Of a stretch of 64,000 bases of DNA, positions 6,587-48,764 are shown piece after piece. The stretch comes from an uncultured Alphaproteobacteria bacterium (lineage in GTDB: Bacteria > Pseudomonadota > Alphaproteobacteria > GCA-2731375). The DNA is taken from positions 1,070,557 to 1,134,556 of the forward strand of contig CATOSZ010000003.1 in NCBI GenBank assembly GCA_951812805.1, written 5' to 3'. The translations under genes were made by a program, and so were the position numbers. The notes beneath the pieces are model-generated. The model saw only the letters and a list, made by a program, of their open reading frames with translations, made no database searches and was not told the DNA's origin. The first letter of the stretch is position 1. Each line of letters begins with the position of its first letter.

Positions 6587-6603
6587 CCCTGGAGCAATCG
6601 ACC

Positions 6604-8885: not shown

Positions 8886-8929
8886 TGGTCACCCGCCACC
8901 GATACACCCCAACCTGAGCGGAGCGAGAC

Positions 8930-11602: not shown

Positions 11603-12564
11603 CCACGAAGATTGCCCTGCTGGACGACTATCAGAACGTGGCGCTCTCCATGGCCGACTGGTCGGCGCTCAGGGCCCGGGCCGAGATCACCTGTTTCGAC
11701 GATCACGAGGCGGACCTCGATGCCCTCGCCGCCCGCCTGGCACCCTTCGAATGCATCGGCATCATGCGGGAGCGGACCCCCTTTCCCGCCGCGCTGATGG
11801 AGCGGCTGCCCAACCTGCGCCTGCTGGTGACGACGGGCATGCGCAACGCCTCCGTCGATCTGGAGGCGGCGGTCGGCGCGGGCGTCACCGTCTGCGGCAC
11901 CGGCGCCGGCAACACCGCGACGGCGGAGCTGACCTGGGGCCTCATCCTCTCGCTGCTGCGGCAGATCCACCTGAACCATGCGGTCATGCGCGCCGGCGGC
12001 TGGCAGGATCACATCGGCCTCGACGTCGCCGGCAAGACGCTGGGGCTCATCGGCCTCGGCCGCCTCGGCGCCCAGGTCGCCCGGGTCGGCCTTGCCTTCG
12101 GCATGAAGGTCGTCGCCTGGAGCCAGAACCTCACCGACGAGCGCGCCGGCGAGATCGGGGCCAGCCGGGCGGAGAGCCTGCAGGCCCTGCTCGAAGTCGC
12201 GGACATCGCCACCATCCACCTGGTGTTGAGCAATCGCAGCCGCGGCCTGGTCGGCGCGGCGGAACTGGCGGCGCTGGGCCCGGCTGGATATCTCGTCAAC
12301 ACGAGCCGCGGGCCGATCGTCGACGAGGGGGCGCTGCTCGCGGCCCTCGAGGCGGGCACCATCGCCGGCGCGGGGCTGGACGTCTACGACACCGAGCCGC
12401 TGCCCGCGGACCACCCGCTGCGGGGGGCCCCGAACCTCCTGCTCTCACCGCACGTCGGCTATGTCACGCAGGAGACCTACGAGGTGTTCTATGCCGACAT
12501 GGCCGGCGTCATGGCCGCCTTCCTCGACGGTGCGCCGAGCCGCGTCATCGCCGCGCCCGGTTGA
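11599..12564 (+). CDS. D-2-hydroxyacid dehydrogenase family protein
   Basis: This 321-residue enzyme has the NAD-binding motif GLIGLGRLGAQVARVGLAFG and the catalytic Arg-Glu-His set in NTSRGPIVDE, the VYDTEPLP region and LSPHVGYVT. Members reduce 2-keto acids to D-2-hydroxyacids (glyoxylate, phosphohydroxypyruvate and similar). It is coupled to pepN by an ATGA overlap, which gives no clear functional hint, and a phytanoyl-CoA dioxygenase-type gene follows. The exact substrate is unknown. Confidence 0.87.
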   Translation: MTTKIALLDDYQNVALSMADWSALRARAEITCFDDHEADLDALAARLAPFECIGIMRERTPFPAALMERLPNLRLLVTTGMRNASVDLEAAVGAGVTVCGTGAGNTATAELTWGLILSLLRQIHLNHAVMRAGGWQDHIGLDVAGKTLGLIGLGRLGAQVARVGLAFGMKVVAWSQNLTDERAGEIGASRAESLQALLEVADIATIHLVLSNRSRGLVGAAELAALGPAGYLVNTSRGPIVDEGALLAALEAGTIAGAGLDVYDTEPLPADHPLRGAPNLLLSPHVGYVTQETYEVFYADMAGVMAAFLDGAPSRVIAAPG

Positions 12565-12667
12565 GGCGACGGCGCGACCAATCGACGCGAAGCGGTTCCG
12601 AGACGTTGAAATCCCCGAGGCTTCGGGCTACCTCGAACGTCCGAAGCAGATGACGGAGGCAGGTCCC

Positions 12668-13432
12668 ATGGCGACCCGCGTATTGAGCGACGAACAGGTG
12701 GCGTTCTTCGAGGCGCAGGGCTATCTCATCGCGCCGGGCCTGTTCGATGCGTCGATGACGGCGGCGCTGATCCAGGCCACTGCGGAAGTCCAGGCGATGC
12801 CCGAAGTTGCCGGCCGGCAGATGGTCTATTGGGAGACCAGCCAGCATGGCGACGGCACCCGCATGGTGCAGCGGATCGAGAACTTCTATCCCTATCACGA
12901 CTGGTTCCACGAGCTGTTCGACGGCCCCCTTCTGCGGCGCGCGGTGGATCAGCTGTTCGGCGAGGACTCGGTCCTCTACAAGGACAAGATCAACCTGAAG
13001 ATGCCGGGCGGCGACGGCTTCAAGCTGCACCAGGACCAGCAGGCCGGCTGGGGCATCTATGCGCCGATCTTCATCACCGCCCTCGTCTGCGTCGATGAGG
13101 CGACGATCGAGAACGGCTGCCTCAAGGTGGCGGGCGGCCTGCACCGCCAAGGTCTGATCGGCAAGGAGTGGGAACCGATGACTGAGGCCGACCTCGGCGA
13201 TGCCGACTATGTCGCGGCGCCGACCAAGCCCGGCGACGTGATCTTCTTCGATTCCTTCGCCCCGCACGGCTCCGAGCCGAACCTGACCGACAGTTCGCGC
13301 CGCGTGCTCTACGTCACCTACAACAAGCGAAGCGACGGCGATCACCGCGCGCAGTATTACGCCGACAAACGGGCGAGCTTCCCGCCCGATATCGAGCGTG
13401 AGGCCGGCGCGGAGTACAAGTTCAGGGTTTAG
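12668..13432 (+). CDS. phytanoyl-CoA dioxygenase (PhyH) family protein
   Basis: This 254-residue Fe(II)/2-oxoglutarate oxygenase shows the iron ligands His121 and Asp123 in KLHQDQQAG and His200 in FAPHGSEPNLTDSSRR; the arginine pair at 211-212 should bind 2-oxoglutarate. An in-frame ATG exists at 12650, but GGAGG lies correctly before the ATG at 12668, which I take as the start. PhyH relatives in bacteria hydroxylate small molecules such as ectoine, phosphonates or lipids; nothing here identifies the substrate. The family is certain, the reaction is not. Confidence 0.85.
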   Translation: MATRVLSDEQVAFFEAQGYLIAPGLFDASMTAALIQATAEVQAMPEVAGRQMVYWETSQHGDGTRMVQRIENFYPYHDWFHELFDGPLLRRAVDQLFGEDSVLYKDKINLKMPGGDGFKLHQDQQAGWGIYAPIFITALVCVDEATIENGCLKVAGGLHRQGLIGKEWEPMTEADLGDADYVAAPTKPGDVIFFDSFAPHGSEPNLTDSSRRVLYVTYNKRSDGDHRAQYYADKRASFPPDIEREAGAEYKFRV

Positions 13433-13446
13433 GACAGCGTCGGCCG

Positions 13447-14007
13447 ATGACGACGGACCTGGAGCTTCGCTTCACCACGCAGGCCGCGTCCCTGACGGCG
13501 AGCGTCCGCTTCGAGGATCTCGTCGTCGTCGTGGACGATACGGCGCTGCTGCTCGCCGCCAACCGCCTGACCACGGCGGCGGAAATCTCCCTCGCCGGCG
13601 CCGAAACGGGCGGCGCGCTCGCCTACGGTCTGTTCTCCTGGGGCGGCGCGCTCTGGCTTTGTGTCGGCTCAGACCACCGTGATCTGGTCGAAGCCGACCC
13701 GGTGCGCGCCCGGATGCTGTGCCAGACGCCGATCGGCCCGGAGGTCTGGCGCCTCGACGAAGTGATCGGGCATTGGGACCGGCTGGACGTCGCGGGCCCG
13801 CATCCCCGCGACCTGATCGGCCGCGCCGCGGGCGTCGGCGGTGGAATCGCAGAAGGGGTGCTGCTGTTGGCCGGAAGCGCCGAGGCGGTGCCAGCGGGCG
13901 ACGGCCTCGTGGTGCGCCTCGCCGATTCCGTGCTCGGCCGCGAATTACGCCACGGCTACCGGGTGCGGGTGCTGTCCCAGCCAATCGATCGCTTCAGGAA
14001 GCGATAG
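13447..14007 (+). CDS. DUF2848 family protein
   Basis: The 186-residue protein matches DUF2848 (fumarylacetoacetate hydrolase-like fold) in the LWLCVGSDHRDLVEAD block, the MLCQTPIGPEVWRLDEV segment and the C-terminal DSVLGRELRHGYRVRVL, all family hallmarks. Many members are longer at the N-terminus. The family usually accompanies catabolic operons and no reaction is assigned. Its last 52 bases overlap the 3' end of the convergent peptidase gene. It follows the PhyH-like gene by 14 bases and is probably in its operon. Confidence 0.75.
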   Translation: MTTDLELRFTTQAASLTASVRFEDLVVVVDDTALLLAANRLTTAAEISLAGAETGGALAYGLFSWGGALWLCVGSDHRDLVEADPVRARMLCQTPIGPEVWRLDEVIGHWDRLDVAGPHPRDLIGRAAGVGGGIAEGVLLLAGSAEAVPAGDGLVVRLADSVLGRELRHGYRVRVLSQPIDRFRKR

Positions 14008-16028
14008 CCGAGCGCGGTGAAGGCCGCCCGTTCCTCGAGATCGCGGCCATGGCCGTGGCCGCCGGTCGCGGGCTCGTGAAACCAGGCCTCGTGGCCGAGC
14101 GCCTGCAGCTTCGCCGCGAACTTGCGGGCATGGCCCGGATGGACCCGATCGTCGCGGCGCAACGTCGCGAGCAGGATCGGCGGATAACGCTCCCCGGTCG
14201 CGGCCAGGTGGTAGGCGGAGTAGGTCTTCAAATGCGCCCAATCCGCCGGATCGTCGGGATCGCCGTATTCCGCGATCCAGCTGGCGCCGGCCAGCAGCTT
14301 CGTGTAGCGGCGCATGTCGACGAGCGGGATCGTGCAGAACAGGGCGCCGAAACGTTCCGGGTGCCGGACCAGCATGTTGGCGATCAGCAGCCCGCCGTTG
14401 GAGCCGCCCTCCGCCGCGATTCGGCCCGGCACGGTCACGCCGCGCGCGACGAGATCACGGGCGACGGCGGCGAAATCGTCCTGCGCCAAACGCTTGCCGG
14501 CGCCGCAGCCCGCCTGGTGCCAGGCGCTGCCGAACTCACCGCCGCCGCGAAGACAGGCGGTGACGGCGGTGCCGCCCGCCTCCAGCCACAGCTTGCCGAT
14601 GCCCTTGCGATAGACCGGCAGCTCCGCCACCTCGAAACCGCCGTAGCCATGCAGGTGAACCGGCGCCCGGCCGCTGTCCTCGTCGGCCGGGCCGACCTGG
14701 AAATAGGGGATGCGGGTGCCGTCGTCGGCCAGCGCCTCGTGCCGCCGGGCGACCAGGCCCTCGGCCTCGAAGGCGGCACCCTCGCGCTTCAGCAGGGCGG
14801 GTGCCGCGCCCGGCTCGATCAGCAGCAGTGAGGGCGGCGTCAGCGGCCCTTCGAGGTCGAGCAGCAGATCGCCGTTCGAGTCGCCCGGATCCGCGTCCAG
14901 GCGGCCCACCCGGGCGGTCGCGACGCTCGGCACACCGGCGATGCGCTCGCGCGACCAGCCGGCATCGCCCGGCGTGAACAGCTCGAAGACCGGAACCAGG
15001 TCGTCCAACACCGGTTGCACGAACCGCCCCCCGGCCCAGAAGCCGTCTTCCACCGGCACCCGGCGCGGCGCCGCCTCGAACAGCACCTCGAACGTCCCCT
15101 CCCCCGCCCGCAGCGCGTCGACCGAGATCCCCAGCAGCGTGTCGGCGGCAAAGGTCCGTCCGGCCGCCGACCAGGGCCGGCGCGGCCGGAAGGCCAGCCA
15201 GTCGCCCTGGATCTGCGGCCAGGAATCCGACGGCAGGTCCAGCCGTTCTCGCGGGCCGGCGCCGTCACCCTGCCAGACGGCCACGTTCTGGAAGTCCTCG
15301 GCCTCGTGGAACCAGACGCGCGGGGCGGCCGCGGGCAGGGTTTCGACGGTAGCCCAGACCGCCATGCTGTCCGCACCGGCGGTGAAGACGATCTCGGGCG
15401 CCGTTCCGCGGTGCCAGCGCCGCACGCATCGGGCATAGCCCGATGCCGTCGCCATGCCCTCGCCGTGTGCGCTCGACAGCAACACCGTGTCGGGGTCGAG
15501 CCAGCTGACGCCGCCCTTCGCTTCGTCCAGGACGAAGCCGTCGTCGACGAATCGCCCCGTCTCGATATCGAATTCGCGCAGCACCACCGCATCGCCGCCA
15601 CCCCGGCTGAGCCTGAGGATCGCGCGCGCCGGCCGCATCGGACAGACGGTCGCGCCGCCCCAGACCCAATCCTCCCCCTCCGCCCCGGAAAGCGCGTCGA
15701 GGTCGAACAGCAGGTCCCAGGCCGGCGTTTCGTCCCGGTAGGCGGCGAGCGTCGTGCGCCGCCAGAGGCCGCGCGGGTTCGCCCGGTCGGTCCAGAAGTT
15801 GTAGAGCCAATCTCCGCGGCGGCGAACGTGCGGCAGCCGGTCGGCACGACCCAGCAGGGTCGCCAGCGCGTCACGCTCCGCCTCGAAACCCGCGTCGGCG
15901 AAGGCGGCCCGGGTTTCCTGGTTGCGCGCCGCGACCCAGGCCAGCGCGGCCTCGCCCTCGATCTCCTCGAGCCAGAGATAGGGATCGTCGTCGGGAGCCT
16001 CGATGGTCGGCCCCGTCGGCGCAGTCAT
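13956..16028 (-). CDS. S9 family serine peptidase (prolyl oligopeptidase type)
   Basis: The 690-residue protein has an N-terminal beta-propeller and a C-terminal alpha/beta hydrolase domain. The nucleophile is Ser543 in GGSNGG, the acid is in RRDDRVHP (626/627) and the histidine is in GGHGHG (658). The N-terminal DDPYLWLEEIEGEAALAWV is typical of prolyl oligopeptidases. There is no signal peptide, so a cytosolic or periplasm-independent role is likely. The propeller limits access to short peptides. The 3' end overlaps the convergent DUF2848 gene by 52 bases. Confidence 0.9.
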   Translation of the reverse strand: MTAPTGPTIEAPDDDPYLWLEEIEGEAALAWVAARNQETRAAFADAGFEAERDALATLLGRADRLPHVRRRGDWLYNFWTDRANPRGLWRRTTLAAYRDETPAWDLLFDLDALSGAEGEDWVWGGATVCPMRPARAILRLSRGGGDAVVLREFDIETGRFVDDGFVLDEAKGGVSWLDPDTVLLSSAHGEGMATASGYARCVRRWHRGTAPEIVFTAGADSMAVWATVETLPAAAPRVWFHEAEDFQNVAVWQGDGAGPRERLDLPSDSWPQIQGDWLAFRPRRPWSAAGRTFAADTLLGISVDALRAGEGTFEVLFEAAPRRVPVEDGFWAGGRFVQPVLDDLVPVFELFTPGDAGWSRERIAGVPSVATARVGRLDADPGDSNGDLLLDLEGPLTPPSLLLIEPGAAPALLKREGAAFEAEGLVARRHEALADDGTRIPYFQVGPADEDSGRAPVHLHGYGGFEVAELPVYRKGIGKLWLEAGGTAVTACLRGGGEFGSAWHQAGCGAGKRLAQDDFAAVARDLVARGVTVPGRIAAEGGSNGGLLIANMLVRHPERFGALFCTIPLVDMRRYTKLLAGASWIAEYGDPDDPADWAHLKTYSAYHLAATGERYPPILLATLRRDDRVHPGHARKFAAKLQALGHEAWFHEPATGGHGHGRDLEERAAFTALGYRFLKRSIGWDSTRTR

Positions 16029-23353: not shown

Positions 23354-23403
23354 CGCAGCGGACAATCGGAATTGCATCCGGTGAAACGAGGGGGAACCAG
23401 ACC

Positions 23404-24381
23404 ATGCAGATGCCTTCACTCAGTACTTTCGGCGCGCTCGCCGCCGGCGCCCTGATGACGCTCGGCCTCGCCGGGACGGCCGGCGCCCAGGACTGCCCGC
23501 GCAGCTTCCTCGACAAGGCCTATTGCGATTACGACGGCGACCTGGTGGCCGACCTGCCGCTCGACGAGAAGGAATGGAAGGACCCGTCCACCATTATCTT
23601 CTCCTACACCCCCGTCGAGGATCCGGCGGTCTATGCCAAGGTCTGGGACGGCTTCGTCAACCACATGGCGAAAGTGACCGGGCGCAAGGTGGTTTTCTTC
23701 CCCGTGCAGTCCTACGCCGCGCAGTACGAGGCCATGCGCTCCGGCCGCCTGCACATCGCCGGCGTCAACACCGGCGGCAATCCGGTCGCGGTGGCCTGTG
23801 CCGGCCTGGTGCCCTTCGCCATGATGGCCAAGGCGGACAACAGCTTCGGCTACGAGATGGAAATCATCGTGCCGGCCGACAGCCCGTTGAAGTCGCCCGC
23901 CGAACTGAAGGGCAAGACGCTGGCCTTCACCTCGCCAACCTCGAATTCCGGCTTTAAGGCGCCATCCGCCATCCTGAAGGGCGAGTTCGGCCTGGTCGCC
24001 GACAAGGACTTCAAGACGACCTATTCCGGCAAGCACGACAACTCGATCCTCGGCGTCGCCAACAAGGACTACGAGGCGGCGGCGATCGCCAATTCGGTGC
24101 TGGGCCGGATGATCAGCCGCGACGTCGTCAAGGCCGACCAGATCCGCTCGATCTACAAGTCGGGAACCTTCCCGACGACCGGCTACGGCCATGCCCACAA
24201 TTTGCATCCCGCCCTGGTGGCGAAGATCAAACAGGCTTTCTTCTCCTTCAATTGGGTTGGCTCCGAGCTAAAGAAGGAGTTCAAGAAGGAAGACAAGTTC
24301 ATCGCCATCAACCACAAGCACGACTGGGACGTGATCCGGAAGATCGACGCCGCCAACGGCGTGAGCTACGGCTGCAAGTAG
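23404..24381 (+). CDS. phnD: phosphonate-type ABC transporter periplasmic binding protein
   Basis: The 325-residue protein starts with a signal peptide (hydrophobic [14 protein letters not shown], cleavage after GAQ or nearby) and has the PhnD fold: [20 protein letters not shown], the ligand-loop region [19 protein letters not shown], and [12 protein letters not shown]. PhnD proteins bind phosphonates or related phosphate esters in the periplasm. The ATPase and two permease genes follow on the same strand, completing a transporter. No C-P lyase or phosphonatase is visible, so the true ligand could also be phosphite or a phosphoester. Confidence 0.9.
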
Positions 24382-24409
24382 GCGGCTGCGAGTAGGCGGG
24401 GACGACGCG

Positions 24410-25267
24410 ATGCTGCGTCTCGAGGGCTTGCACAAGCGCTATCCCACAGGCGACGTGGCGTTGCAAAGCGTCGACCTGGAGGTGCCCGAAGGCCAGGTCA
24501 TGGCCCTCATCGGGCCCTCCGGCGCCGGCAAGAGCACGCTGATCCGCTGCATCAACCGGCTGGTGGAGCCGACCGCCGGGCGGGTCTTCATCGGCGATGA
24601 AGAGGTGAGCGCGCTCTCCAAACGGCGCCTGCGCCGGGCGCGGCGGCGGATGGGCATGATCTTCCAGGAGTACGCCCTGGTCGAACGGCTGACGGTGATG
24701 GAGAACGTGCTGTCCGGGCGGCTCGGCTATGTCGGCTTCTGGCGCAGCTGGGCCCGGCGCTTTCCCCAGAGCGACGTCGACGAGGCGTTCCGCCTGCTCG
24801 CCCGCGTCGGCCTGGACGAGATGGTCGACAAGCGGGCGGACGAGCTGTCGGGCGGCCAGCGCCAGCGCGTCGGCATCGCCCGGGCGCTGATCCAGGACCC
24901 GGCCTTGCTGCTGGTCGACGAGCCGACCGCCAGTCTCGATCCCAAGACCTCGCGGCAAATCATGCGGCTGATCCGCGAGCTGTGCCAGGAACGCCGCCTG
25001 GCGGCCATCATCAACATCCACGACGTGGCGCTGGCGCAGATGTTCGCCCAGCGCATCGTCGGTCTGCGGCTCGGCGAGATCGTCTACGACGGGCCGACCG
25101 ACGGGCTTGATGCCGCCGTGCTGACCGAGATCTACGGCGAGGAAGACTGGCAGGCCACGATCCGCAAGGACGATGACGACGCGGAGACGGCGGACGACGA
25201 CGACCAGGCCGTCACCGGCCCGCGCGGCCCCACGCTCGACGAAGAGCGGATGGCCGGGATCGGGTAG
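24410..25267 (+). CDS. phnC: phosphonate-type ABC transporter ATP-binding protein
   Basis: The 285-residue ATPase has Walker [10 protein letters not shown] at 35-43, the signature [15 protein letters not shown], Walker [13 protein letters not shown] and an H-loop in [11 protein letters not shown]. It drives import through the two PhnE permeases. The last 30 or so residues form an acidic tail ([14 protein letters not shown]) beyond the usual ATPase end, which is unusual. It starts 28 bases after phnD and ends 6 bases before the first permease gene. Confidence 0.93.
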
Positions 25268-25273
25268 CGGGTC

Positions 25274-26086
25274 ATGAGCCTGGGAGAGGGGATCGCCGCG
25301 GGCCGCCGCTGGCGCAAGCCGCCGCTGATCAAGAATCCGCGCCTGCGTTGGGGCCTGGCGATCTTCGCCGCGCTCTATCTCGCCGCGGCCTTCGGCACCA
25401 TCGAGGTCAACTGGACCCGGGTCTGGGACGGCCTGCCGCGCGGCGAACAGTTCCTGCTCGCCTTCCTGCCGCCGGACTTCGCCACGCGCTGGGACGACAT
25501 CCTCGACGGCATCCTCGAAAGCCTGTGGATGACGGTGACCGCCACCGTCGTCGGCATCGCCATCTCGGTGCCGATCGGCCTCGGTGCCGCCAAGAACATC
25601 GCGCCGGCGCCGGTCTATTACGTCTGCCGCGCCATCGTCGCCGGCTCGCGCAGTTTCCAGGAGATCATCCTGGCGATCTTCTTCGTGAAGCTGTTCGGCT
25701 TCGGCCCCTTCGCCGGCTTCATCACGCTCAGCGTGGCGACCGTCGGCTTCTTCGCCAAGCTGCTGGCCGAGGACATCGAGGCGATGGACTGGCGCCAGGC
25801 CGAGGCGGTGCGCAGCACCGGCGCCGGCTGGTTCCAATGGCTGGAGTATTCCGTCCGCCCGCAGGTCATGCCGCGCTTCATCGGCCTCTCGCTGTACCGG
25901 CTGGACATCAACTTCCGCGAGTCGGCCGTGGTCGGCATCGTCGGCGGCGGCGGCATCGGGGCGACGCTGAACACCGCCTTCGATCGCTACGAATTCGACA
26001 GCGCGGCCGCCATCCTGGTGGTGATCATCGTTCTGGTCATGGGCGCCGAGTACGCCTCCGGCCATATCCGGCGCTGGATGCAGTGA
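25274..26086 (+). CDS. phnE: phosphonate-type ABC transporter permease 1
   Basis: The 270-residue protein has about six membrane segments and the PhnE-type coupling loop EAMDWRQAEAVRSTGAGWFQ, followed by the NFRESAVVGIVGGGGIGATL block typical of this permease class. It forms half of the membrane channel served by PhnC. Its stop shares one base with the start of the second permease (TGATG), so the two are translationally coupled. Confidence 0.92.
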   Translation: MSLGEGIAAGRRWRKPPLIKNPRLRWGLAIFAALYLAAAFGTIEVNWTRVWDGLPRGEQFLLAFLPPDFATRWDDILDGILESLWMTVTATVVGIAISVPIGLGAAKNIAPAPVYYVCRAIVAGSRSFQEIILAIFFVKLFGFGPFAGFITLSVATVGFFAKLLAEDIEAMDWRQAEAVRSTGAGWFQWLEYSVRPQVMPRFIGLSLYRLDINFRESAVVGIVGGGGIGATLNTAFDRYEFDSAAAILVVIIVLVMGAEYASGHIRRWMQ

Positions 26087-26901
26087 TGGTGACGAAACGC
26101 GAAGACGGGAAACAGCTCTGGCGCCGGCGCGCGACGCGAACGCAGCTGGCAATCTGGTTCGCCTGGCTCGTCGGCACGGCGATCTTCGTCTACTGCTTCC
26201 AGCTGATCAGCGAGAAGACGATCTGGTTCTTCGTGCTCGACGCGGGCACCCAGGCGGTCGACCTCGGCTCCCGCATGCTGCCGCCCAACTGGGGCTATAT
26301 GGAGGTGCTCTGGCGCCCGATCTGGGACACCATCAACATCGCCACGCTCGGCACGCTGATGGCCCTGGTGATCGCCGTGCCGGTGGCCTTCCTCGCCGCC
26401 CACAACACCACGCCCTCGGTCACCTTCGTGCGCCCGATCGCCCTGCTGATCATCGTCTCCAGCCGGTCCATCAACTCGCTGATCTGGGCCCTGCTGCTGG
26501 TAGCGATCGTCGGGCCGGGCGTGTTCGCTGGCGTCCTGGCGATCGGCTTCCGCTCCATCGGCTTCTGCGCCAAGTTGCTGTACGAGGCGATCGAGGAGAT
26601 CGATCCCAAGCAGGTCGAGGCGGTCGAGGCGACCGGCGCCGCCCGCACCCAGGTGCTGAGCTACGGCGTGGTGCCGCAGGTCCTGCCGGCGTTTGCCGGC
26701 ATCTCGGTGTTTCGCTGGGACATCAACATCCGCGAATCCACCATCCTCGGCCTGGTCGGCGCCGGCGGAATCGGCATCCAGCTTAGCGCGGCGATCGCCG
26801 AACTCGCCTGGAGCAAGGTGGCGCTGATCCTGCTCGTCATCATCGCCACCGTCGTGGTCAGCGAATGGGTCTCGGCCAAGGTCCGCCACTCGTTCATTTG
26901 A
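26086..26901 (+). CDS. phnE: phosphonate-type ABC transporter permease 2
   Basis: The 271-residue second permease starts at the ATG inside TGATG; an upstream in-frame extension is only the shadow of permease 1. It repeats the same architecture: a coupling loop EEIDPKQVEAVEATGAARTQ and NIRESTILGLVGAGGIGIQL. Paired PhnE proteins form a heterodimeric channel. The glycosyltransferase gene begins 71 bases later and probably belongs to another unit. Confidence 0.92.
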   Translation: MVTKREDGKQLWRRRATRTQLAIWFAWLVGTAIFVYCFQLISEKTIWFFVLDAGTQAVDLGSRMLPPNWGYMEVLWRPIWDTINIATLGTLMALVIAVPVAFLAAHNTTPSVTFVRPIALLIIVSSRSINSLIWALLLVAIVGPGVFAGVLAIGFRSIGFCAKLLYEAIEEIDPKQVEAVEATGAARTQVLSYGVVPQVLPAFAGISVFRWDINIRESTILGLVGAGGIGIQLSAAIAELAWSKVALILLVIIATVVVSEWVSAKVRHSFI

Positions 26902-26972: not shown

Positions 26973-27686
26973 TTGACCGCCCTCTCCCTCGTCATCCCCT
27001 GCTACAACGAGGCGGCGAACCTGCCGCTGCTGATCGGCCGGCTGTCCGAGATAATGACGCGCGACGACGTCGAGGTGGTGCTGGTCGACAACGGCTCGTC
27101 CGACGCCAGCGCGGCGATCCTGACCGAAGCGAGCCGGGCGCACGATTTCCTGGCGACGACACGGGTCGAGGTCAATCAGGGCTATGGCCACGGCATCCTC
27201 GCCGGCCTCGCCGCGGCCCGGGGCGCGGTGCTGGCCTGGACCCATGCGGACATGCAGACGGATCCCGAGGACGCGCTTCGCGGCCTCGCGCTGTTCGAAG
27301 CAGCGGCGGAGCCGGCCCGCCTGTTCGTCAAGGGCCGGCGTTATGGCCGGCCGCTCGGCGATGTCGCCTTCACTGTGGGCATGGCGGGCTTCGAAACCCT
27401 GCTGCTCGGCCGGCCCCTGTGGGACATCAACGCGCAACCCACCATGTTCCCGCGCGCCTTCTACGAGACCTGGCGCGCACCGCCGGGCGATTTCTCCCTC
27501 GACCTCTATGCCTATTACCAGGCGCGGCTCGCCGGCCTGGAGGTCACCCGCTTCCCCGTCCGCTTCGGCGAGCGGGCGCACGGCACCTCGCACTGGAACG
27601 TCGACTGGAAAGCCAAGGTGCGCTTCATCCGCCGCACCATGGGCTATAGCCTGGAGTTGCGCCGACGCCTGAGGGAGGTCGCATGA
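26973..27686 (+). CDS. GT2 family glycosyltransferase (polyprenyl-phosphate sugar synthase-like)
   Basis: The start is TTG at 26973, preceded at good spacing by GGAGG; no ATG fits. The 237-residue protein has the GT-A core LSLVIPCYNEAANLPLLIGR, VVLVDNGSSDASA and a DxD-like HADMQTDPED. There is no membrane anchor. The overall pattern is that of dolichol-phosphate mannose synthase-like enzymes that load a sugar onto a polyprenyl phosphate. It overlaps the next gene by 4 bases, opening a five-gene tight cluster that ends with uppP. The sugar is unknown. Confidence 0.82.
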   Translation: MTALSLVIPCYNEAANLPLLIGRLSEIMTRDDVEVVLVDNGSSDASAAILTEASRAHDFLATTRVEVNQGYGHGILAGLAAARGAVLAWTHADMQTDPEDALRGLALFEAAAEPARLFVKGRRYGRPLGDVAFTVGMAGFETLLLGRPLWDINAQPTMFPRAFYETWRAPPGDFSLDLYAYYQARLAGLEVTRFPVRFGERAHGTSHWNVDWKAKVRFIRRTMGYSLELRRRLREVA

Positions 27687-28267
27687 TCCTGGTCCGCCAT
27701 CGCCGGAACACGCCCGAGGAGCTGGCCGCGACGCCGCGGGAATACGGCATCGAGGTCGACATCCGCAGCCAGGGCGCGGATTTGGTCATCCACCACGATC
27801 CCTTCGTCCATGGCGGGCGCTTCGAGGACTGGCTGGCCGGCTATGCGCACGGCACCCTCATCGCCAACGTGAAGGAGGAGGGGCTGGAGGAACGGGTGTT
27901 GGCCGCGCTTGCGCGGCGGGGCATCGAGGATTTCTTCTTCCTCGATCAATCCTTCCCCTTCCTGATCCGCACCGCGCGTAGCGGGGAACGGCGCACGGCC
28001 GTCCGCGTCTCCGAATATGAATCGATCGACACCGCGATGAGCCTCGCCGGCCGGGTCGAATGGGTCTGGGTCGACTGTTTCACGAAATTCCCCCTGTCGG
28101 GGGACGCGGCGGCCCGCCTCCAGGCCGCGGGCTTCAAGCTGTGCCTGGTCTCACCCGAATTGCAGGGCCGCGACAACGCCGAGATCGCCGCGATGCGCGA
28201 CCTGCTGGCCGCCCGCGATATCCAGGCCGAGGCGGTCTGCACCAAGGCGCCGGAGCTCTGGCGATGA
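27683..28267 (+). CDS. GDPD-like phosphodiesterase-fold protein
   Basis: The 194-residue protein resembles a shortened glycerophosphodiester phosphodiesterase barrel: His6-Arg7 and Asn9-Thr10 (HRRNT), the acidic pair Glu24 and Asp26 (EVDIRS), and HHDP at 37-40 match the metal and catalytic positions in order. It is shorter than typical GDPDs (about 240-300 residues). There is no signal peptide, so it should act in the cytoplasm, unlike many GDPDs. It overlaps the GT2 gene by 4 bases, and the membrane fusion protein starts 4 bases later. Its role could be hydrolysis of a phosphodiester-linked intermediate. Confidence 0.65.
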   Translation: MILVRHRRNTPEELAATPREYGIEVDIRSQGADLVIHHDPFVHGGRFEDWLAGYAHGTLIANVKEEGLEERVLAALARRGIEDFFFLDQSFPFLIRTARSGERRTAVRVSEYESIDTAMSLAGRVEWVWVDCFTKFPLSGDAAARLQAAGFKLCLVSPELQGRDNAEIAAMRDLLAARDIQAEAVCTKAPELWR

Positions 28268-28271: not shown

Positions 28272-30359
28272 ATGAGCGGGTTTCGTGAGATCGGCCGCCA
28301 GCCGCTGTTCCGCATCGGCCTGGCGGCGAAGCTGGTCCTCGTCGCCCTGGTGGTACCCGAGGTGCAGCAGGAGTGGTTTCTGCCCTTCGTCAGCTTCATG
28401 CCGACCGCACCGAGCTTCGACCCCTGGACCGCCTTCGTTGCCGGCGGCGGCGATACGCTGGCTTTTCCTTACGGTGTCGTCATGGCACTGGCCCACCTGC
28501 CGACGGTGGCGCTCGGCCTCCTCGCCGACAAGCTCACCGGGCTCGACTACCTGGCGGGCGTCGGCTTCCGGGCGAGCTTGCTGCTGGCCGACATCGCGGC
28601 GTTGTCACTGCTCGCCCGGCTCGCGGGCGATGGCAGCCTGCGCGCCGTGCTGGTGTTCTACTGGCTCTCGCCGTTCTCCCTCTACGTCACCTATTGGCAT
28701 GGGCAGACCGACGTGGTGCCGGTGCTGCTGCTGCTGGCCGCCCTGCTCTACCTGAAGGACGCGCGCGCCCACGCGGCCGGCGTCGCCACCGGCCTGGCGA
28801 TGGTCGCCAAGCTGTCGATGGGGCTCGCCGCGCCGTTCCTGCTGCTCTACCTCTGGGTCAACAAGCGGACCCGCGATCTCGCCATCCCCTTCGCCGCGGC
28901 GGCGGCCGGCGCCCTGCTGCTGGCCCAGGGACCCTGGCTCGCCTCCCCCGGCTTTCGCGAGATGGTCTTCGGCAGCCGGGAGATCGCCAAGGTCTATCAG
29001 CTGAGCCTGGAACTGGCGCCGGGCCTGTCGCTCTACCTAACGCCCTTGATCTACCTGCTATTGCTCTATTTCGTCTGGCGCTTTCGCCGGCAGAACTTCG
29101 AGCTGCTTCTGGCCGTGCTCGGCGTGGTCTTCTTCGCCGTCGTGCTGATGACCCCCGCCTCGGTCGGCTGGTACCTCTGGGTGCTGCCGTTCCTGGCCTT
29201 GCACCAGGCCCGAGCCGGCGCCAGCGCCGTGTTCCTGACCACGGTCTTCGCAGCATTGTTGATCTCCTACCACCTGCTCTATTCGCAGGGGGCACAGGTC
29301 CCGGCCCTCGGCCTCGACTACACCTGGCAGGGGGCGGAGATCGCGGCCTACGTCTCGAACCACGCCCGCTCCCTCTGGCTCACCCTGATCGGCGCCTTCG
29401 GCATCGTGCTGGCGGTCGGCATGTACCGGCGCGGCATTACCGACAACGATTTCCATCGCCTCGGCCGGCGACCCCTGGCCCTGGCGATCGCCGGTGACAG
29501 CGGTGCCGGCAAGAGCACGCTGGCGCTGGCACTCGCCGGTCTGTTCGGCGAGCGGGCGGTCACCCACGTCGCGGGCGACGACTACCACCTCTGGGAACGG
29601 CAGGAGCCGATGTGGCGGGCATTGACCCATCTCGATCCGCGAGCCAACGACCTGCAGCGCTTTACCCAAGACGCGCTCGGCATGATCGAGGGCCGACGCG
29701 TCGTCGCCCGGCGTTACGATCACGGTACCGGCCGCTTCACCAGCCCCGAGGTGATCCCGGCCAACGACGTCGTCATCGTCTCCGGCCTGCACGCGCTCTA
29801 TCCCCCGGAGCTGCGCGCGCGCCTCGACCTTCGCATCTTCATCGGTGCCGAGGAGGCCCTGCGCCGGCACTGGAAGATCGCCCGCGACGTCACCGAACGG
29901 GGACATGACGCCGACACGGTCGTCGCCTCGATGGACCGGCGCACACCCGACGGCGCGCGCTACATCGCACCGCAGGCCGATCACGCCGACCTGGTCTTCA
30001 CCCTGCTACCGGTCGACCCGCGACTGCTGGAGGGTGAAGCCCCCCTCGGCGAGGATCAGGTCAAGCTTCGCGTACGGCTGCGCGAGGGGCTCTATTACGA
30101 ACAGCTCTCCCGCGTGCTGATCGGCATCTGCGGCCTGAGCGTCGAGGTCGAAGCGATCGACCAGGACGCCACCGTCGTCTTCGTCGTCGACGGCGAGGTG
30201 GCGGCCGAGGACATCGCGCTGGCGGCAGGCATGCTGGTGCCGCGTCTCGACGAACTGCTCGACCGGGCACCGCTTTGGCACGGGCGCATGGCCGGCATCA
30301 TGCAGCTGGTCTGCCTGATGCAGATCGACCAGGCCCTGAGGGAACGGACATGGCGGTGA
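28272..30359 (+). CDS. GT-C-like polytopic membrane protein fused to a uridine-kinase-type P-loop kinase
   Basis: Residues 1-390 contain about ten to twelve membrane segments with the PFSLYVTYWHGQTDVVPVLL loop seen in GT-C/DUF2029-type mannosyltransferases, which use lipid-linked sugars. From residue 400 the protein becomes a soluble kinase of the uridine kinase/phosphoribulokinase class: Walker A GDSGAGKS at 408-415, then GDDYHLWERQEP and the VIVSGLHALYPPELR strand. The junction is in frame with no stop or shift, so the fusion looks genuine. The first ATG (28264) is cut by a stop; the ATG at 28272 is used. The kinase end overlaps the HAD gene by 10 bases. Confidence 0.78.
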   Translation: MSGFREIGRQPLFRIGLAAKLVLVALVVPEVQQEWFLPFVSFMPTAPSFDPWTAFVAGGGDTLAFPYGVVMALAHLPTVALGLLADKLTGLDYLAGVGFRASLLLADIAALSLLARLAGDGSLRAVLVFYWLSPFSLYVTYWHGQTDVVPVLLLLAALLYLKDARAHAAGVATGLAMVAKLSMGLAAPFLLLYLWVNKRTRDLAIPFAAAAAGALLLAQGPWLASPGFREMVFGSREIAKVYQLSLELAPGLSLYLTPLIYLLLLYFVWRFRRQNFELLLAVLGVVFFAVVLMTPASVGWYLWVLPFLALHQARAGASAVFLTTVFAALLISYHLLYSQGAQVPALGLDYTWQGAEIAAYVSNHARSLWLTLIGAFGIVLAVGMYRRGITDNDFHRLGRRPLALAIAGDSGAGKSTLALALAGLFGERAVTHVAGDDYHLWERQEPMWRALTHLDPRANDLQRFTQDALGMIEGRRVVARRYDHGTGRFTSPEVIPANDVVIVSGLHALYPPELRARLDLRIFIGAEEALRRHWKIARDVTERGHDADTVVASMDRRTPDGARYIAPQADHADLVFTLLPVDPRLLEGEAPLGEDQVKLRVRLREGLYYEQLSRVLIGICGLSVEVEAIDQDATVVFVVDGEVAAEDIALAAGMLVPRLDELLDRAPLWHGRMAGIMQLVCLMQIDQALRERTWR

Positions 30360-31129
30360 AACGGCGAGCGGCGGGCACGTTCGAGCGCGCACCCAAGGCG
30401 GTGATTTTCGACCTGGATGATACGCTCTATGCCTATGCCCCGGCGCACGAGGCGGCGACGGCCATCGTCGAGGCCAAGGCCGTCGGGCTTTTGGGCGTCG
30501 AGCGCGAGGCCTTCGCCGAGGCTCTCGCGCGCGGCCGGGATGCGACGAAGGACCTGCTCGGCCAGACCGCCAGCGCGCATAGCCGCCTGCTGTACTTCCA
30601 CCGGGCGATCGAACTGCTCGGCATGAAGAGCCGGCCGCTCACCAGCCTGGACCTCGAGCAGACCTACTGGCGCGCCTTCCTCGCCAACGCCCGCCTGTTC
30701 CCCGACGTCGAGGACTTCATCCGCGACCTGCGCGGCGCCGGTATCGCCACCGCCGTGCTGACCGACCTCACCGCCCAGATTCAGTTCCGCAAGCTGGTCT
30801 ATTTCGGGCTGGAGGGCGCCTTCGACTATGTCGTGACGTCGGAGGAGGCCGGCGCCGACAAGCCCGACAACGCGCCCTTCCGCCTCGTGCTCGACAAGCT
30901 TGCCGTCGCCCCGGACGCGGCTTGGCTGATCGGCGACAACCCGGCGAGCGACATCGAGGGTGCGCGACGCCTCGCGATCCCGGCGTTGCAACGCCTCCCC
31001 GCCGGCGCGCGGATCGGTGAGGGTGACCGGGCGCCCGACGCGACGTTCGAGAATTTTGGCGAGCTCCGAGAGCTGCTGGGCGACCTGGTCGGGGAAGCGG
31101 GGCCGGACGAGCGGCAGGACGGAGATTGA
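30350..31129 (+). CDS. HAD family hydrolase (probable phosphatase)
   Basis: The ATG at 30350, after GAGGGAA, gives 259 residues. The nucleophile pair is Asp21 and Asp23 in IFDLDDTLYAYAP; motif II lies in TAVLTDLTAQIQ, and the motif IV region reads LIGDNPASDIEGARR. The cap is helical (subfamily I), which fits small phosphometabolites. It overlaps the kinase fusion by 10 bases, so kinase and phosphatase are made together; it may remove the phosphate that the kinase adds, or act on the product. Substrate unknown. Confidence 0.82.
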   Translation: MAVKRRAAGTFERAPKAVIFDLDDTLYAYAPAHEAATAIVEAKAVGLLGVEREAFAEALARGRDATKDLLGQTASAHSRLLYFHRAIELLGMKSRPLTSLDLEQTYWRAFLANARLFPDVEDFIRDLRGAGIATAVLTDLTAQIQFRKLVYFGLEGAFDYVVTSEEAGADKPDNAPFRLVLDKLAVAPDAAWLIGDNPASDIEGARRLAIPALQRLPAGARIGEGDRAPDATFENFGELRELLGDLVGEAGPDERQDGD

Positions 31130-31200
31130 CGAATCGAATCGGCGACCACGTGCTATAAGCCTCGTTGCGCGAGGGTCGGGGGCAACGGCACGGTCGGGAC

Positions 31201-32019
31201 ATGATGGACGGAGAACTCGGCCTGGTGCAGATCGTCACCCTGGCGCTGATCCAGGGCGTGACGGAATTTCTGCCGATCAGTTCCTCCGCGCATCTGATCC
31301 TGGTCCCGCTCGTCGCGGACTGGCCCGACCAGGGCCAGGAGATCGACATCGCCGTGCACGTCGGTACCCTCGGCGCGGTGATGATCTATTTCCGCGACGA
31401 GGTCCGCCGCCTCACCGGCGCGCTGTTCGCGGCACTCGGCCGACGACGGACCGTGGACACGCCGCTGCTCGGCCTGCTGATCGTCGCCACCGTGCCGCTC
31501 ATCTGCGCGGGCGTCGTGCTAACCCGTTTCGATATCGACGACTGGCTTCGCGCCATCGAGGTCATCGCCTGGGCGACCATCGTCTTCGCCGTTCTGCTCT
31601 ACCTCGTCGATCTTTCGCCGCGAACCCAGGGTACGGTCCGCGAGCTCGGCTGGAAGGGCGCGCTGGCGATCGGCCTGGTCCAGTGTTTCGCCCTGATACC
31701 GGGGACTAGCCGCGCCGGTGCCTGCGTCATCGGCGCCCGGATGCTGGGCATGGAACGCGCGGAGGCCGCGCGTTTTTCCATGCTGCTGTCGATCCCCGCC
31801 ATCCTGGCGGCGGGCGGCTACGCGAGCGTCAAGATCGCCGCCACGGGCAGTCTGGACTTCGGCCTGGCCGCGCTCACCGCCGGCGCGCTCGCCTTCGTCG
31901 CGGCGCTGGCCGGCATCGCCTTCCTGATGTTCTGGGTGCGGCGCTCCAGCTACACGATCTTCGTGGTTTATCGGCTGATGCTCGGCGGCGGCCTGCTGTG
32001 GTGGGTCTACGGCGGCTGA
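31201..32019 (+). CDS. uppP: undecaprenyl-diphosphatase
   Basis: This 272-residue integral membrane protein has the BacA/UppP signatures QGVTEFLPISSSAH (18-31) and PGTSRAGACVIGARMLG (the usual Ser after PGTSR is Ala). It recycles undecaprenyl diphosphate to the monophosphate carrier needed for peptidoglycan and glycan export. ATGs at 31201 and 31204 are both possible, and the ribosome site is weak. It lies 71 bases behind the HAD gene on the same strand, which links lipid-carrier recycling to the upstream glycan-like cluster. Confidence 0.93.
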   Translation: MMDGELGLVQIVTLALIQGVTEFLPISSSAHLILVPLVADWPDQGQEIDIAVHVGTLGAVMIYFRDEVRRLTGALFAALGRRRTVDTPLLGLLIVATVPLICAGVVLTRFDIDDWLRAIEVIAWATIVFAVLLYLVDLSPRTQGTVRELGWKGALAIGLVQCFALIPGTSRAGACVIGARMLGMERAEAARFSMLLSIPAILAAGGYASVKIAATGSLDFGLAALTAGALAFVAALAGIAFLMFWVRRSSYTIFVVYRLMLGGGLLWWVYGG

Positions 32020-35283: not shown

Positions 35284-36225
35284 ATGAGCCCGCAACCGAC
35301 ACCTCCCTTTCGCATCGGCACCCGCGGCAGCCCGCTGGCGCTGGTCCAGGCCGAAGAGGTCCGCGACCGCCTCGCCGCCGCACATGGCGCCGGCGCGCCG
35401 GAAACCGAAATCGTCGTCATTTCGACCGCCGGCGACCGCATTCGCGACAAGCCGCTGCGCGCCTTCGGTGGCAAGGGCCTGTTCACCAAGGAGATCGAGG
35501 CGGCCCTGCTGGCGGGCGAAATCGACGTCGCGGTGCACTCGATGAAGGACGTGCCGACGGAGAACCCGCCCGGCCTGGCGATCGACTGCATCCTGCCCCG
35601 GGCCGATGCCCGCGACGCCCTGCTCGCCCATGATGCGACCAGCCTCGGCGCCCTGCCGGAAGGCGCGGTGATGGCGACCTCCTCGCTGCGTCGCCGGGCG
35701 CAATCGCTCTTTCTCCGGCCCGACCTTCGCATCGTCGAGAATCGCGGCAACGTGCAGACCCGGATGGCCCGGCTCGCGAGCGGCGAGGTGACGGGGATGC
35801 TGCTTGCCGAAGCGGGGCTGCGCCGTCTCGGCCTGCCGGCCGAAACCGGGGTGCCGCTGGCACCGGAGGAAATCCTGCCCGCCGTCGCCCAGGGGGCCAT
35901 CGGCGTGCAACGGCGGGCCGACGATGAGCGGACGCAGGCACTGCTCCGCCCCCTCGACGATGCCGCCTCGGCGCTTTGCGTCGCCACGGAACGGGCCTTC
36001 CTCGCCGCCCTTGACGGGTCCTGCCGCACACCGATCGCCGGCCTGGCCCTGCTGGAAGACGGCGGCGCGATCCATTTCCGTGGCGAAATCCTCACCCCTG
36101 ACGGGCAAACCCGCCATGCCACCAGCCGTCGCGGCGCCGCGGCTGATGGACCTACCCTCGGCCGCGAGGCGGGAGAGGAACTGCTGGCGCGCGCCGGCCC
36201 CGACTTCTTCACGGACGAGGTGTGA
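35284..36225 (+). CDS. hemC: hydroxymethylbilane synthase (porphobilinogen deaminase)
   Basis: The ATG at 35284 gives 313 residues. The protein joins four porphobilinogen units; its dipyrromethane cofactor is attached to Cys247 in LDGSCRTPIAG. RIGTRGSPLALVQAEEV, the GKGLFTKEIE loop and SSLRRRAQ are all conserved, and the catalytic Asp lies in HSMKDVPTE. It begins a heme operon: the hemD fusion starts 8 bases after its stop. Confidence 0.96.
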   Translation: MSPQPTPPFRIGTRGSPLALVQAEEVRDRLAAAHGAGAPETEIVVISTAGDRIRDKPLRAFGGKGLFTKEIEAALLAGEIDVAVHSMKDVPTENPPGLAIDCILPRADARDALLAHDATSLGALPEGAVMATSSLRRRAQSLFLRPDLRIVENRGNVQTRMARLASGEVTGMLLAEAGLRRLGLPAETGVPLAPEEILPAVAQGAIGVQRRADDERTQALLRPLDDAASALCVATERAFLAALDGSCRTPIAGLALLEDGGAIHFRGEILTPDGQTRHATSRRGAAADGPTLGREAGEELLARAGPDFFTDEV

Positions 36226-36233
36226 GGCGGCCG

Positions 36234-38276
36234 ATGCGTTTGTTGGTGACCCGGCCGGCGGACGACGCCCGACGCCTCGTCGACGACCTCCGGGCGCGGG
36301 GCCACGAGGTGATCGAGGCCCCCTTGCTGGAAATCGAGTTCCACGAGGGCCCGCCGCCCGATCTCGACGGCGTGCAGGCCCTTCTGGCGACCAGTGCCAA
36401 CGGCGTGCGGGCACTCGCCCACCGGCTGGCCGGCGGGCCGCCGGATTTGCCGCTGCTGGCGGTCGGCGACGCGACGGCGCGGGCGGCACAGGATCTCGGT
36501 TTCCGCGACGTCGAAAGCGCCGGGGGCGATGTCGGCGCGCTCGCCGCGTTGGTCGAGCGGCGCTTGCAACCCGAGAACGGTACGCTTGTGCATGTCGCGG
36601 CCGGTGCGGTGGCGGGCGATCTCGCGGGCGCGTTGAGCGCGGCCGGCTTTACAGTTCGCCGCGACGTGCTGTACGAGGCGCGCAGCCTCGAGCATCTGCC
36701 ACCGCTCGCGGTCCGGGCGCTCGGCGCGGGACAAATCGACGCCGTGTTGTTTTTTTCGCCGCGTACCGCCGCCGCCTTTGTTAGGCTTGCCCGGGCGGCG
36801 GATGTCGCGGACGATTGCGATAGGGTGACGGCCTGCTGCCTGTCGCCCGCGGTGGCCGAGGCGGCCGCCGGGTTGAACTGGCGGGACGTCGTGGTCGCGG
36901 CGGAACCGCGCGAAGCGGCGCTGCTGCAAGGGTTGGAGGAGACGGTCGTGGCGATACCGCCGGAACGAGACAAGACGGGCGAGCCGGACGACACGCGCGA
37001 AACGGCCGCTGTGGACGCGCCCGAGGAGACGACGGAGGGTCTCTCCGATACGCCGTTCACGGTGAGCGACGCGGCACCCGAAGACGGGCCGGTGATCGAC
37101 GCGCCCCCGGCGGCCGCGCCGCAGCGGGGCCGCCGACGGGCGATCCGCATCGCCTGGGTCGCCTCCCTGGTCGTGGCCTTTATTCTCGGCATGCTGGTCT
37201 GGCCGTCGACGGCGCCGCATTTGCTGCCCTACCTGCCGGATTTCATGCAGGACCCGAAGGAGCTCCGCCTGGCCTCCCTCGAAGCCCGGTTGGAAAGCCT
37301 CGGCAATCGGGTCGCCGCGACGGCGCCGGCCGATACGGCGCCGGTGCGCCAGCTCACCGGCCGGCTCGAGACGGTCGAAAAACGGCTCGCCGCGACGACG
37401 GAGAAGATCGATCCGAGCCTCGGCGCGCGACTGGAGGCCCTGGAAGCCCGGCTCGGCGAGGTCGCGGCACGGCGCGCGTCGAGTGGCGACGAAGACCGTC
37501 TGGCGGCCCTGGAAACGGCGGTCACGGGACTGCAGGGCAAGGCGCTGGCGGCGGCCGACGGCGGCGGCGAAGCGACGGCGGCGGCCGAAGCCCTTACGGA
37601 ACGGATCGACGCGGTCGCCGGTGAAACCAAAGGGCTGCGCGGCGCCATCGACGACGTCGCGGGCACGGCCGGCGGCCTGGCCGGGCGGATCGACGCCCTC
37701 GACCTCAAGCTCGCGGCCTTGGCGAAGGACGACGGCGGCGGGAACGCCGGCGCACGGGCCCAGGCCCTGGTGCTGGCGGTCGGACATCTCGACAACGTGC
37801 TGCGCGCAGGGCGGGCTTATGACCGGGCGCTCGGCACCGTTTCGCCACTCGGCCAGGGCGACGCGAAGATCGAGGCCGCGCTTGCGACCTTGAAAACCAC
37901 GGCCGGCAGCGGCGTCGCCACGGCCGCGTCACTTCGCGCCCGGTTCGCACCACTGATCGCCGAGGCACTGGCGGCCGATGGCCGGTCGAACGACGAGCAT
38001 TGGTGGGACTATGTGAAGCACGAACTGTTCGGGCTCGTCACCGTGCGTCGGCGCGGCGAGGTCGCGGGCGAGGACACGCCCAGCGCGCTCGCCCGGGCGG
38101 AAGCGCGGCTGGAGCAGGGCGATGTCGCTGGCGCCTTGAAGGCGGTCGTGGCAATCGAGGGGGCGCCGGCGAAGGTGCTGGCCGCCTGGCGGGCCGAGGC
38201 GGCTGCCCGCGTCGCCGCCATTTCCGCCCTCGACGGCTTGCGCACGCGGGCCATCGAATTGCTCGGCACCGGGTGA
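36234..38276 (+). CDS. hemD: uroporphyrinogen-III synthase fused to a mitofilin/Mic60-type membrane protein
   Basis: Residues 1-235 form a HemD-type domain (RLLVTRPADDARRLVDDL, LLATSANGVRALA, DAVLFFSPRTAAAFVRLA) that closes the tetrapyrrole ring. An acidic linker leads to one membrane helix at about 304-325 (IAWVASLVVAFILGMLVW), then a long coiled coil (about 335-500) and a C-terminal domain like mitofilin. There is no stop or frame change between the parts. Alphaproteobacterial Mic60 genes are known to lie in heme operons as separate genes; here the two are one polypeptide. A GTG at 36222 overlapping the hemC stop is an alternative start. Confidence 0.85.
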   Translation: MRLLVTRPADDARRLVDDLRARGHEVIEAPLLEIEFHEGPPPDLDGVQALLATSANGVRALAHRLAGGPPDLPLLAVGDATARAAQDLGFRDVESAGGDVGALAALVERRLQPENGTLVHVAAGAVAGDLAGALSAAGFTVRRDVLYEARSLEHLPPLAVRALGAGQIDAVLFFSPRTAAAFVRLARAADVADDCDRVTACCLSPAVAEAAAGLNWRDVVVAAEPREAALLQGLEETVVAIPPERDKTGEPDDTRETAAVDAPEETTEGLSDTPFTVSDAAPEDGPVIDAPPAAAPQRGRRRAIRIAWVASLVVAFILGMLVWPSTAPHLLPYLPDFMQDPKELRLASLEARLESLGNRVAATAPADTAPVRQLTGRLETVEKRLAATTEKIDPSLGARLEALEARLGEVAARRASSGDEDRLAALETAVTGLQGKALAAADGGGEATAAAEALTERIDAVAGETKGLRGAIDDVAGTAGGLAGRIDALDLKLAALAKDDGGGNAGARAQALVLAVGHLDNVLRAGRAYDRALGTVSPLGQGDAKIEAALATLKTTAGSGVATAASLRARFAPLIAEALAADGRSNDEHWWDYVKHELFGLVTVRRRGEVAGEDTPSALARAEARLEQGDVAGALKAVVAIEGAPAKVLAAWRAEAAARVAAISALDGLRTRAIELLGTG

Positions 38277-46803: not shown

Positions 46804-46860
46804 GCCGGCCTCGCCCTGGGCTAGACTGATGCCAGGGCGATGACACCAGGGAGCAAGGGC

Positions 46861-48129: not shown

Positions 48130-48764
48130 ACGAATCCCGATTACGCGAAGAGATCACGCGGTACGGTCGTTCGATTTTCGATCGCGGGCTGACGGGCGGT
48201 TCCACCGGCAACATTTCGGTTCGGGTCGAGGACGGATTCCTGATGACGCCGACCGGCTCCTCCCTCGGCACCCTGGATCCGGCGAGAATTTCCAAACTGG
48301 ACGATTCCGGCGGGCACGTCTCCGGCGACGCGCCGACGAAGGAAGCGTTCCTGCACATCGCGATGTATCGCCAGAGGCTGGCGGCCGGCGCCGTCGTGCA
48401 TCTGCATTCCACGCATTCCGTCGCCGTCGGCTGCCTCGCCGACGTCGATCCCGAGGACGTGTTGCCGCCGCTCACCGCCTATTACGTCATGCGGATCGGA
48501 CGGCTGCCCCTGGTCCCGTTCTTTCCGCCGGGCGACCCCGCGCTGGCCGACGCGGTCGGCGACTATGCCGCACGCCATCACGCGGTCCTGCTGGCCAATC
48601 ACGGGCCCGTGGTGGCGGGCAGCGGTCTTTCCGCCGCCGTCGACGCGGTGGAGGAGCTGGAGGAGACGGCGCGTTTGCACCTGCTGCTGCAGGGCCATCG
48701 CACCCGTCCCCTGACCGCCGCCCAGGCCGACGCGGTGCGCGACGCCTTTCCCGTGCGGGCCTGA
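48126..48764 (+). CDS. otnC: 3-oxo-tetronate 4-phosphate decarboxylase (class II aldolase fold)
   Basis: The 212-residue protein has the class II aldolase/adducin fold: GLTGGSTGNISVRVEDGF binds phosphate, AVVHLHSTHSVAVG supplies two metal His, and ANHGPVVAG the third. Glu in TKEAFLHIAMY is the general acid/base. It releases CO2 from 3-oxo-tetronate 4-phosphate to give dihydroxyacetone phosphate. It overlaps otnK by four bases, which confirms the pair. Confidence 0.87.
   Translation: MNESRLREEITRYGRSIFDRGLTGGSTGNISVRVEDGFLMTPTGSSLGTLDPARISKLDDSGGHVSGDAPTKEAFLHIAMYRQRLAAGAVVHLHSTHSVAVGCLADVDPEDVLPPLTAYYVMRIGRLPLVPFFPPGDPALADAVGDYAARHHAVLLANHGPVVAGSGLSAAVDAVEELEETARLHLLLQGHRTRPLTAAQADAVRDAFPVRA

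Follow-up and report, generated by a model that had tools for sequence, protein, structure and literature searches.

A phosphoribulokinase-like domain fused in frame to a GT-C membrane transferase lies at the core of a conserved gene cassette probably serving surface glycosylation

Cassettes of the GtrABC type, which modify O-antigens, combine a GtrA flippase, a GtrB glycosyltransferase of family GT2 and a variable GtrC protein. In the HldE/GmhB route, which also employs a nucleotidyltransferase, a kinase and an HAD phosphatase relocate the phosphate on a heptose. Membrane transferases of the GT-C type are expected to carry an aspartate in the first periplasmic loop. The Asp-His catalytic dyad of phosphoribulokinase (PRK) has been described (PMC9978339), and in haloarchaea ribulose-1-phosphate is produced by a ribulose-1,5-bisphosphate (RuBP) phosphatase and cleaved by a class II aldolase, the two being encoded in one operon (PMC9700705). 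Here we describe a locus whose parts resemble members of these systems. The window, the whole 64,000-nucleotide stretch that was analyzed, comes from an uncultured Alphaproteobacteria bacterium and contains the following features.

26973..27686, + strand: GT2 glycosyltransferase, putative polyprenyl-phosphate sugar synthase, 237 aa (PF00535, 71.3 bits)
27683..28267, + strand: GDPD/PLC-like TIM-barrel phosphodiesterase by fold, 194 aa (AlphaFold2 pLDDT 96.3)
28272-30359, + strand: fusion gene, 695 aa in one uninterrupted frame
28272..29441, + strand: GT-C membrane domain, fusion residues 1-390 (VIA-align Z 27.1 to 9wno; GT87, 24.8 bits)
29466..30359, + strand: phosphoribulokinase-like domain, fusion residues 399-695 (PF00485, 123.5 bits; Z 28.3 to 9qkp)
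30350..31129, + strand: HAD phosphatase (NF053830, 182.9 bits; ribulose-1,5-bisphosphate 5-phosphatase is the best curated match)
31165..32019, + strand: UppP/BacA undecaprenyl-diphosphate phosphatase (PF02673, 226 bits)

The GT2 and 194-aa genes overlap by 4 nt (ATGA), the fusion gene starts 4 nt past the 194-aa gene, and its last 10 nt are shared with the beginning of the HAD gene. A phosphonate-type ABC transporter composed of a binding protein (PF12974), an ATPase and two permeases lies directly upstream of the cassette (23398-26901, + strand). On the other side, a DDE transposase (PF13751/PF05598; 32707-34068) stands between the cassette with UppP and tsaD, and further along hemC is followed immediately by a gene in which HemD (uroporphyrinogen-III synthase) continues in frame into a mitofilin-like C-terminus (36222-38276).

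The in-frame joining of a transferase and a kinase, claimed by the sequence-only reading, is borne out by the single open reading frame and by an AlphaFold2 model (pLDDT 94.6, pTM 0.92), built from 49 homologues with the alignment rows of the plasmid loci left out, which shows both domains and their relative placement at high confidence. Homologues are full-length at approximately 30-53% identity and come from dozens of genera in many phyla, and a class- and phylum-wide search returned full-length fusions at 32-49% identity. Among 60 relatives of the window genome no full-length fusion was found, so that within this group it is present in the window genome only. At least 461 relatives were recovered when 84,980 species genomes were scanned, and among the best 80 are Lysobacter, Pseudomonas, Yersinia, Legionella, Polynucleobacter, Acidobacteria, Geobacter, Actinobacteria, one cyanobacterium and candidate phyla. 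When the domain architecture was examined across 89 loci, the window counted, the fused gene was intact in 82 and the other seven were contig-truncated or locally broken. Because uninterrupted fused homologues occupy 82 of the 89 loci, the fusion is confirmed as a real protein and not an assembly artefact, and the pattern of two separate genes in all relatives, with a frameshift or assembly error here, proved false. In Candidatus Regiella insecticola LSR1, an insect symbiont, the fusion gene is interrupted and the GT2 and GDPD frames are broken, and this locus is apparently decaying.

In the predicted structure, fusion residues 5-403 superpose on GPI-mannosyltransferase I (9wno; VIA-align Z 27.1 over 351 residues), followed by ALG3 (Z 25.6), ALG6 (23.2), PimE (19.5) and ArnT (18.8). 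On the basis of this model, the membrane half is a GT-C transferase nearest to GPI-mannosyltransferase I and ALG3, in agreement with the earlier description of it as GT-C-like. Pfam places GT87 (PF09594) on residues 92-332 at 24.8 bits, 0.2 bit short of the gathering cut-off of 25. The first periplasmic loop carries D50, which is Asp in 32 of 49 relatives and Asn in 13, and these asparagines count against the main explanation given below; D147 is Asp in 48 of 49 and Glu in the remaining one. The donor would be a polyprenyl-phosphate-linked sugar, as the GT2 neighbor suggests.

The second half is of the phosphoribulokinase type by sequence, fold and C-terminal domain. PF00485 covers residues 405-581 (E 1.3e-35; 123.5 bits against a cut-off of 22), the nearest solved chains by sequence are PRKs, and residues 399-691 of the predicted structure superpose on the PRK 9qkp over 286 residues at 27% identity (Z 28.3), including the PRK C-terminal domain that uridine kinases lack. 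Comparison with uridine kinase structure gives Z 21.2 over 193 residues, and the curated udk models score far under their cut-offs (70.6 against 180 and 58.5 against 220.3 bits), so an identity as uridine kinase was rejected. Since residues 399-691 form a complete PRK fold, the label "uridine-kinase-type" given by the sequence-only reading is wrong, while its placement of the Walker A motif at 408-415 is correct (P-loop GDSGAGKS). The cut-off of the curated phosphoribulokinase model NF005655 was missed as well (193.5 against 236 bits). An alignment of the fused family with nine standalone PRKs showed that the catalytic dyad is kept (D436 in 82/82 and H484 in 81/82 fused sequences), and the near-invariant PRK positions of the fused family comprise G408-D409-S410, G413-K414, D436/H484, R443, K535, R538, D539, R543, R557 and Q568. 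Neither RuBisCO (PF00016) nor a second PF00485 protein was found in the 98.5%-complete assembly of the window genome. A role in the Calvin cycle is therefore excluded within the limits of that assembly, and carbon fixation was rejected as an explanation.

Clustering of the ORFs of homologous loci gave six near-universal neighbor families. Profile searches of the 89 loci, in which many absences are contig ends, detected the HAD phosphatase in 85 and the GT2 and the GDPD-like enzyme in 80 each. A nucleotidyltransferase of tandem double form was detected in 75 loci, a class II aldolase in 74 and GtrA in 56. In five genomes without an adjacent nucleotidyltransferase or aldolase, the nucleotidyltransferase was found elsewhere in five of five and the aldolase in four of five. 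The fusion gene is thus the core of a conserved cassette of nucleotidyltransferase, GtrA, GT2, GDPD-fold phosphodiesterase, GT-C/PRK fusion, HAD phosphatase and class II aldolase, and this gene content, like the folds and the active-site conservation, is a matter of direct observation. The GT2 orthologs are mostly 52-71% identical, and the HAD gene adjoins the fusion in most loci. The HAD protein matches NF053830, the haloarchaeal ribulose-1,5-bisphosphate 5-phosphatase model, over its full length at 182.9 bits, under the equivalog cut-off of 330; that both kinase and HAD score under the curated PRK and RuBP phosphatase cut-offs was counted against the main explanation. For the 194-aa protein no Pfam family was found at E 0.01, nor at E 1 for four relatives; however, its top Foldseek matches are glycerophosphodiester phosphodiesterases (3ks5, E 7.5e-7), and H6, E24, D26 and H38, corresponding to the two catalytic histidines and the E/D metal ligands of the GDPD fold, are invariant in 29 sequences. 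In the cassette aldolase E89, H103, H105 and H166 are invariant, which we take, after fuculose-1-phosphate aldolase, to be the zinc and catalytic set.

An extra polytopic ORF, mostly of ~400-700 aa, lies within 2.5 kb in 45 of 55 complete loci, a mechanical count that includes some chance neighbors and, in the window, the transporter permeases. These ORFs come from many unrelated families, one being a clear GT87, and by analogy the variable member resembles the GtrC of O-antigen cassettes. At two divergent copies (L121 and L123), one of them from a candidate-phylum bacterium, the nucleotidyltransferase halves are two separate genes, which suggests two distinct activation steps. A UDP-xylose synthase adjoining the GT2 gene at another locus (L126) was considered as the sugar source and set aside, being rare and accompanied there by the nucleotidyltransferase.

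The copy in the window genome is reduced to GT2, GDPD-like, fusion and HAD genes, with UppP next to them; UppP was rejected as a cassette member, as it was matched in the window and in one other genome's locus only (L114, L035). Profile searches of the window genome did not find the nucleotidyltransferase (best E 0.009) or the cassette aldolase, and the window contains no GtrA. This genome thus does not display the complete route, which was counted against the main explanation. Either the donor comes from other enzymes or the missing genes lie in assembly gaps. The best aldolase match, a different class II aldolase gene at 48126-48764, was rejected as the missing partner because a gene for a four-carbon-acid sugar kinase directly precedes it and its match to the cassette profile is weak (28.6 bits). 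The pair (46840-48764; kinase PF07005/PF17042) looks OtnK/OtnC-like by inspection, in a context unrelated to the cassette.

The fusion also occurs on plasmids of Azospirillum and Hirschia and on an E. coli IncR plasmid. The last, a small plasmid (NZ_CP145712.1), bears the whole cassette at 6022-14984, and a near search of 5,426 genomes identified a near-identical copy on the plasmid of one other E. coli; these two plasmid copies were the only ones, with no near copy on E. coli chromosomes in that search. In the fusion gene tree phyla are intermixed, with 13 label changes where at least 10 would be needed, and many forks are weak. Taken together, these sequence comparisons suggest that the cassette has spread horizontally, although the gene tree is no proof of it. 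Spread by phage was rejected, the search having given a single partial kinase-like match.

We propose that the cassette makes a sugar, probably derived from a pentose, and attaches it to bacterial surfaces, with the fusion joining two halves of one surface-glycan pathway in which relocation of a phosphate on a pentulose feeds a lipid-linked sugar. We give this account about an even chance, because of the fold matches, the charge topology, the conservation of the cassette, the likeness of the HAD and aldolase enzymes, the kept PRK dyad, the lack of RuBisCO and the polytopic ORF. In the cytosol, the PRK-like domain would phosphorylate a pentulose 5-phosphate at C1 to the 1,5-bisphosphate, and the HAD enzyme would take off the other phosphate, leaving a pentulose 1-phosphate and a net relocation. 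The aldolase could exchange this ketose-1-phosphate with DHAP and glycolaldehyde. The nucleotidyltransferase would then activate the sugar, the GT2 enzyme would load it onto undecaprenyl phosphate, and GtrA or another flippase would turn the lipid-linked sugar over, after which transfer to an external acceptor may be carried out by the GT-C domain or by the variable polytopic protein, which is GT-C-like. The fusion would tether the precursor-making kinase at the membrane assembly site. In this account we infer which substrates and product are involved, in which direction the steps run, what the GDPD-like enzyme contributes and why the two domains are fused. A more specific form of the account, tentative and rather improbable in our estimate, is that the cassette serves to place ketopentose residues, either ribulose or xylulose, on the surface glycans of bacteria. 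The pentulose phosphate would be supplied by an aldolase, a bisphosphate phosphatase and a kinase derived from PRK whose metal-binding acid has been relocated, and it would be activated, loaded onto lipid and moved by the attached GT-C enzyme. Rare polysaccharides with xylulose are known chemically (PMC8707391, PMC11380512), and no description of their biosynthetic enzymes was found in the literature searched.

The alternative that survives best, though we consider it unlikely, is that the PRK-like domain is a catalytically weak or dead sensor, binding ATP or a pentulose phosphate and acting as a gate for the transferase or a scaffold for the pathway. It draws on a swap in the metal site: in 65 of 82 fused sequences the P-loop Thr/Ser (residue 415) is replaced by Asp and the Walker-B Glu (504) by Ser, compared to Thr and Glu in all nine standalone PRKs, and the window protein, with Ser415 and Ser504, has neither acid. 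These altered Mg-site residues were also counted against the main explanation. However, D436/H484, K535, R538, D539, R543 and R557 are near-invariant across phyla, and drift would be expected had the domain lost its activity. Additionally, the Walker-B Glu is kept in two fused sequences only, both with Ser or Thr at 415, and from the alignment the acidic metal ligand looks shifted from Walker B to the P-loop, not lost.

Quite improbable is the mechanism favored by the sequence-only reading, in which the attached transferase makes a lipid-linked sugar and the tethered kinase phosphorylates this product, or an acceptor, in place. The two domains are physically fused, and the kinase most likely sits in the cytosol at the membrane, as that reading had expected: with 12 membrane segments taken from the AlphaFold2 model and loop sides assigned by charge, K/R per residue is ~0.24 in cytosol-assigned loops, the kinase junction included, versus 0.05 in periplasm-assigned loops. 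A lipid-sugar made by GT2 would face the cytosol until it is flipped, and in principle the kinase could act on it there. The GT-C active site, however, faces the periplasm in this fold, whereas the kinase and its ATP are cytosolic, so phosphorylation of the GT-C product in place is unlikely; moreover, the kinase site retains the residues with which PRK accommodates a small sugar phosphate, and the HAD neighbor resembles a soluble bisphosphate phosphatase.

Similarly improbable is a catabolic role, with kinase, HAD and aldolase recycling a glycan sugar or feeding DHAP as mere passengers of a glycosylation cassette. The same order of steps, from RuBP through Ru1P to DHAP and glycolaldehyde, is catabolic in haloarchaea (PMC9700705). 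Against this, the constant linkage to nucleotidyltransferase, GT2, GtrA and polytopic protein and the fusion to a GT-C domain point to synthesis, and no importer or regulator family is widely recurrent among the conserved neighbor clusters. The weakest alternative, that unrelated genes were joined by chance or assembly, is refuted by 82 uninterrupted fused copies from many phyla and has practically no chance of being correct.

No paper describing the cassette or the fusion architecture was found in the open-access full-text literature; the parts are known folds, and their architecture and cassette are apparently undescribed there. If the proposed phosphate-relocating pathway is true, it would represent a new use of the PRK fold, with a Calvin-cycle-type kinase joined to a GT-C transferase in surface-glycan synthesis, in this case in a bacterium that has no RuBisCO and in others even encoded on plasmids of E. 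coli. The fusion genes are annotated as "uridine kinase" or "phosphoribulokinase", which misleads surveys of carbon fixation. The exchange of Ser/Thr-Glu for Asp-Ser amounts to a natural experiment on magnesium binding by P-loop kinases, and the cassette provides a testable lead to a lipid-linked sugar that is probably pentose-derived.

By analogy, the cassette may be viewed as a Gtr-like system that modifies glycans by way of a lipid carrier and includes a precursor module derived from PRK. It shares with GtrABC the GT2 enzyme, often GtrA, a variable polytopic protein and a mobile character, but adds a nucleotidyltransferase, a GDPD-like enzyme, a PRK-fused GT-C protein, an HAD phosphatase and an aldolase, and the window copy is without GtrA. 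The whole N-terminal domain superposes on GT-C enzymes (GPI-mannosyltransferase I/PIG-M, ALG3, PimE, ArnT; GT87), yet it carries a C-terminal kinase, its first-loop Asp is not invariant and its GT87 score is 24.8 against 25. Cyanobacterial, plant and archaeal phosphoribulokinases share the full fold with its C-terminal domain, the Asp-His dyad and the substrate-loop residues; unlike them, the fusion is joined to a membrane transferase in a genome without RuBisCO, most members have Asp/Ser at the P-loop and Walker B, and it falls under the curated PRK cut-off. The haloarchaeal non-carboxylating pentose bisphosphate pathway has in common the RuBP phosphatase as best HAD match and a class II aldolase partner, but here the kinase is PRK-like instead of an R1P kinase with an isomerase, the setting is a glycan cassette and the HAD match lies under the equivalog cut-off. 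Finally, the HldE/GmhB route to ADP-heptose follows the same logic of kinase, HAD phosphatase and nucleotidyltransferase leading to a sugar 1-phosphate, whereas the cassette kinase belongs to an unrelated family.
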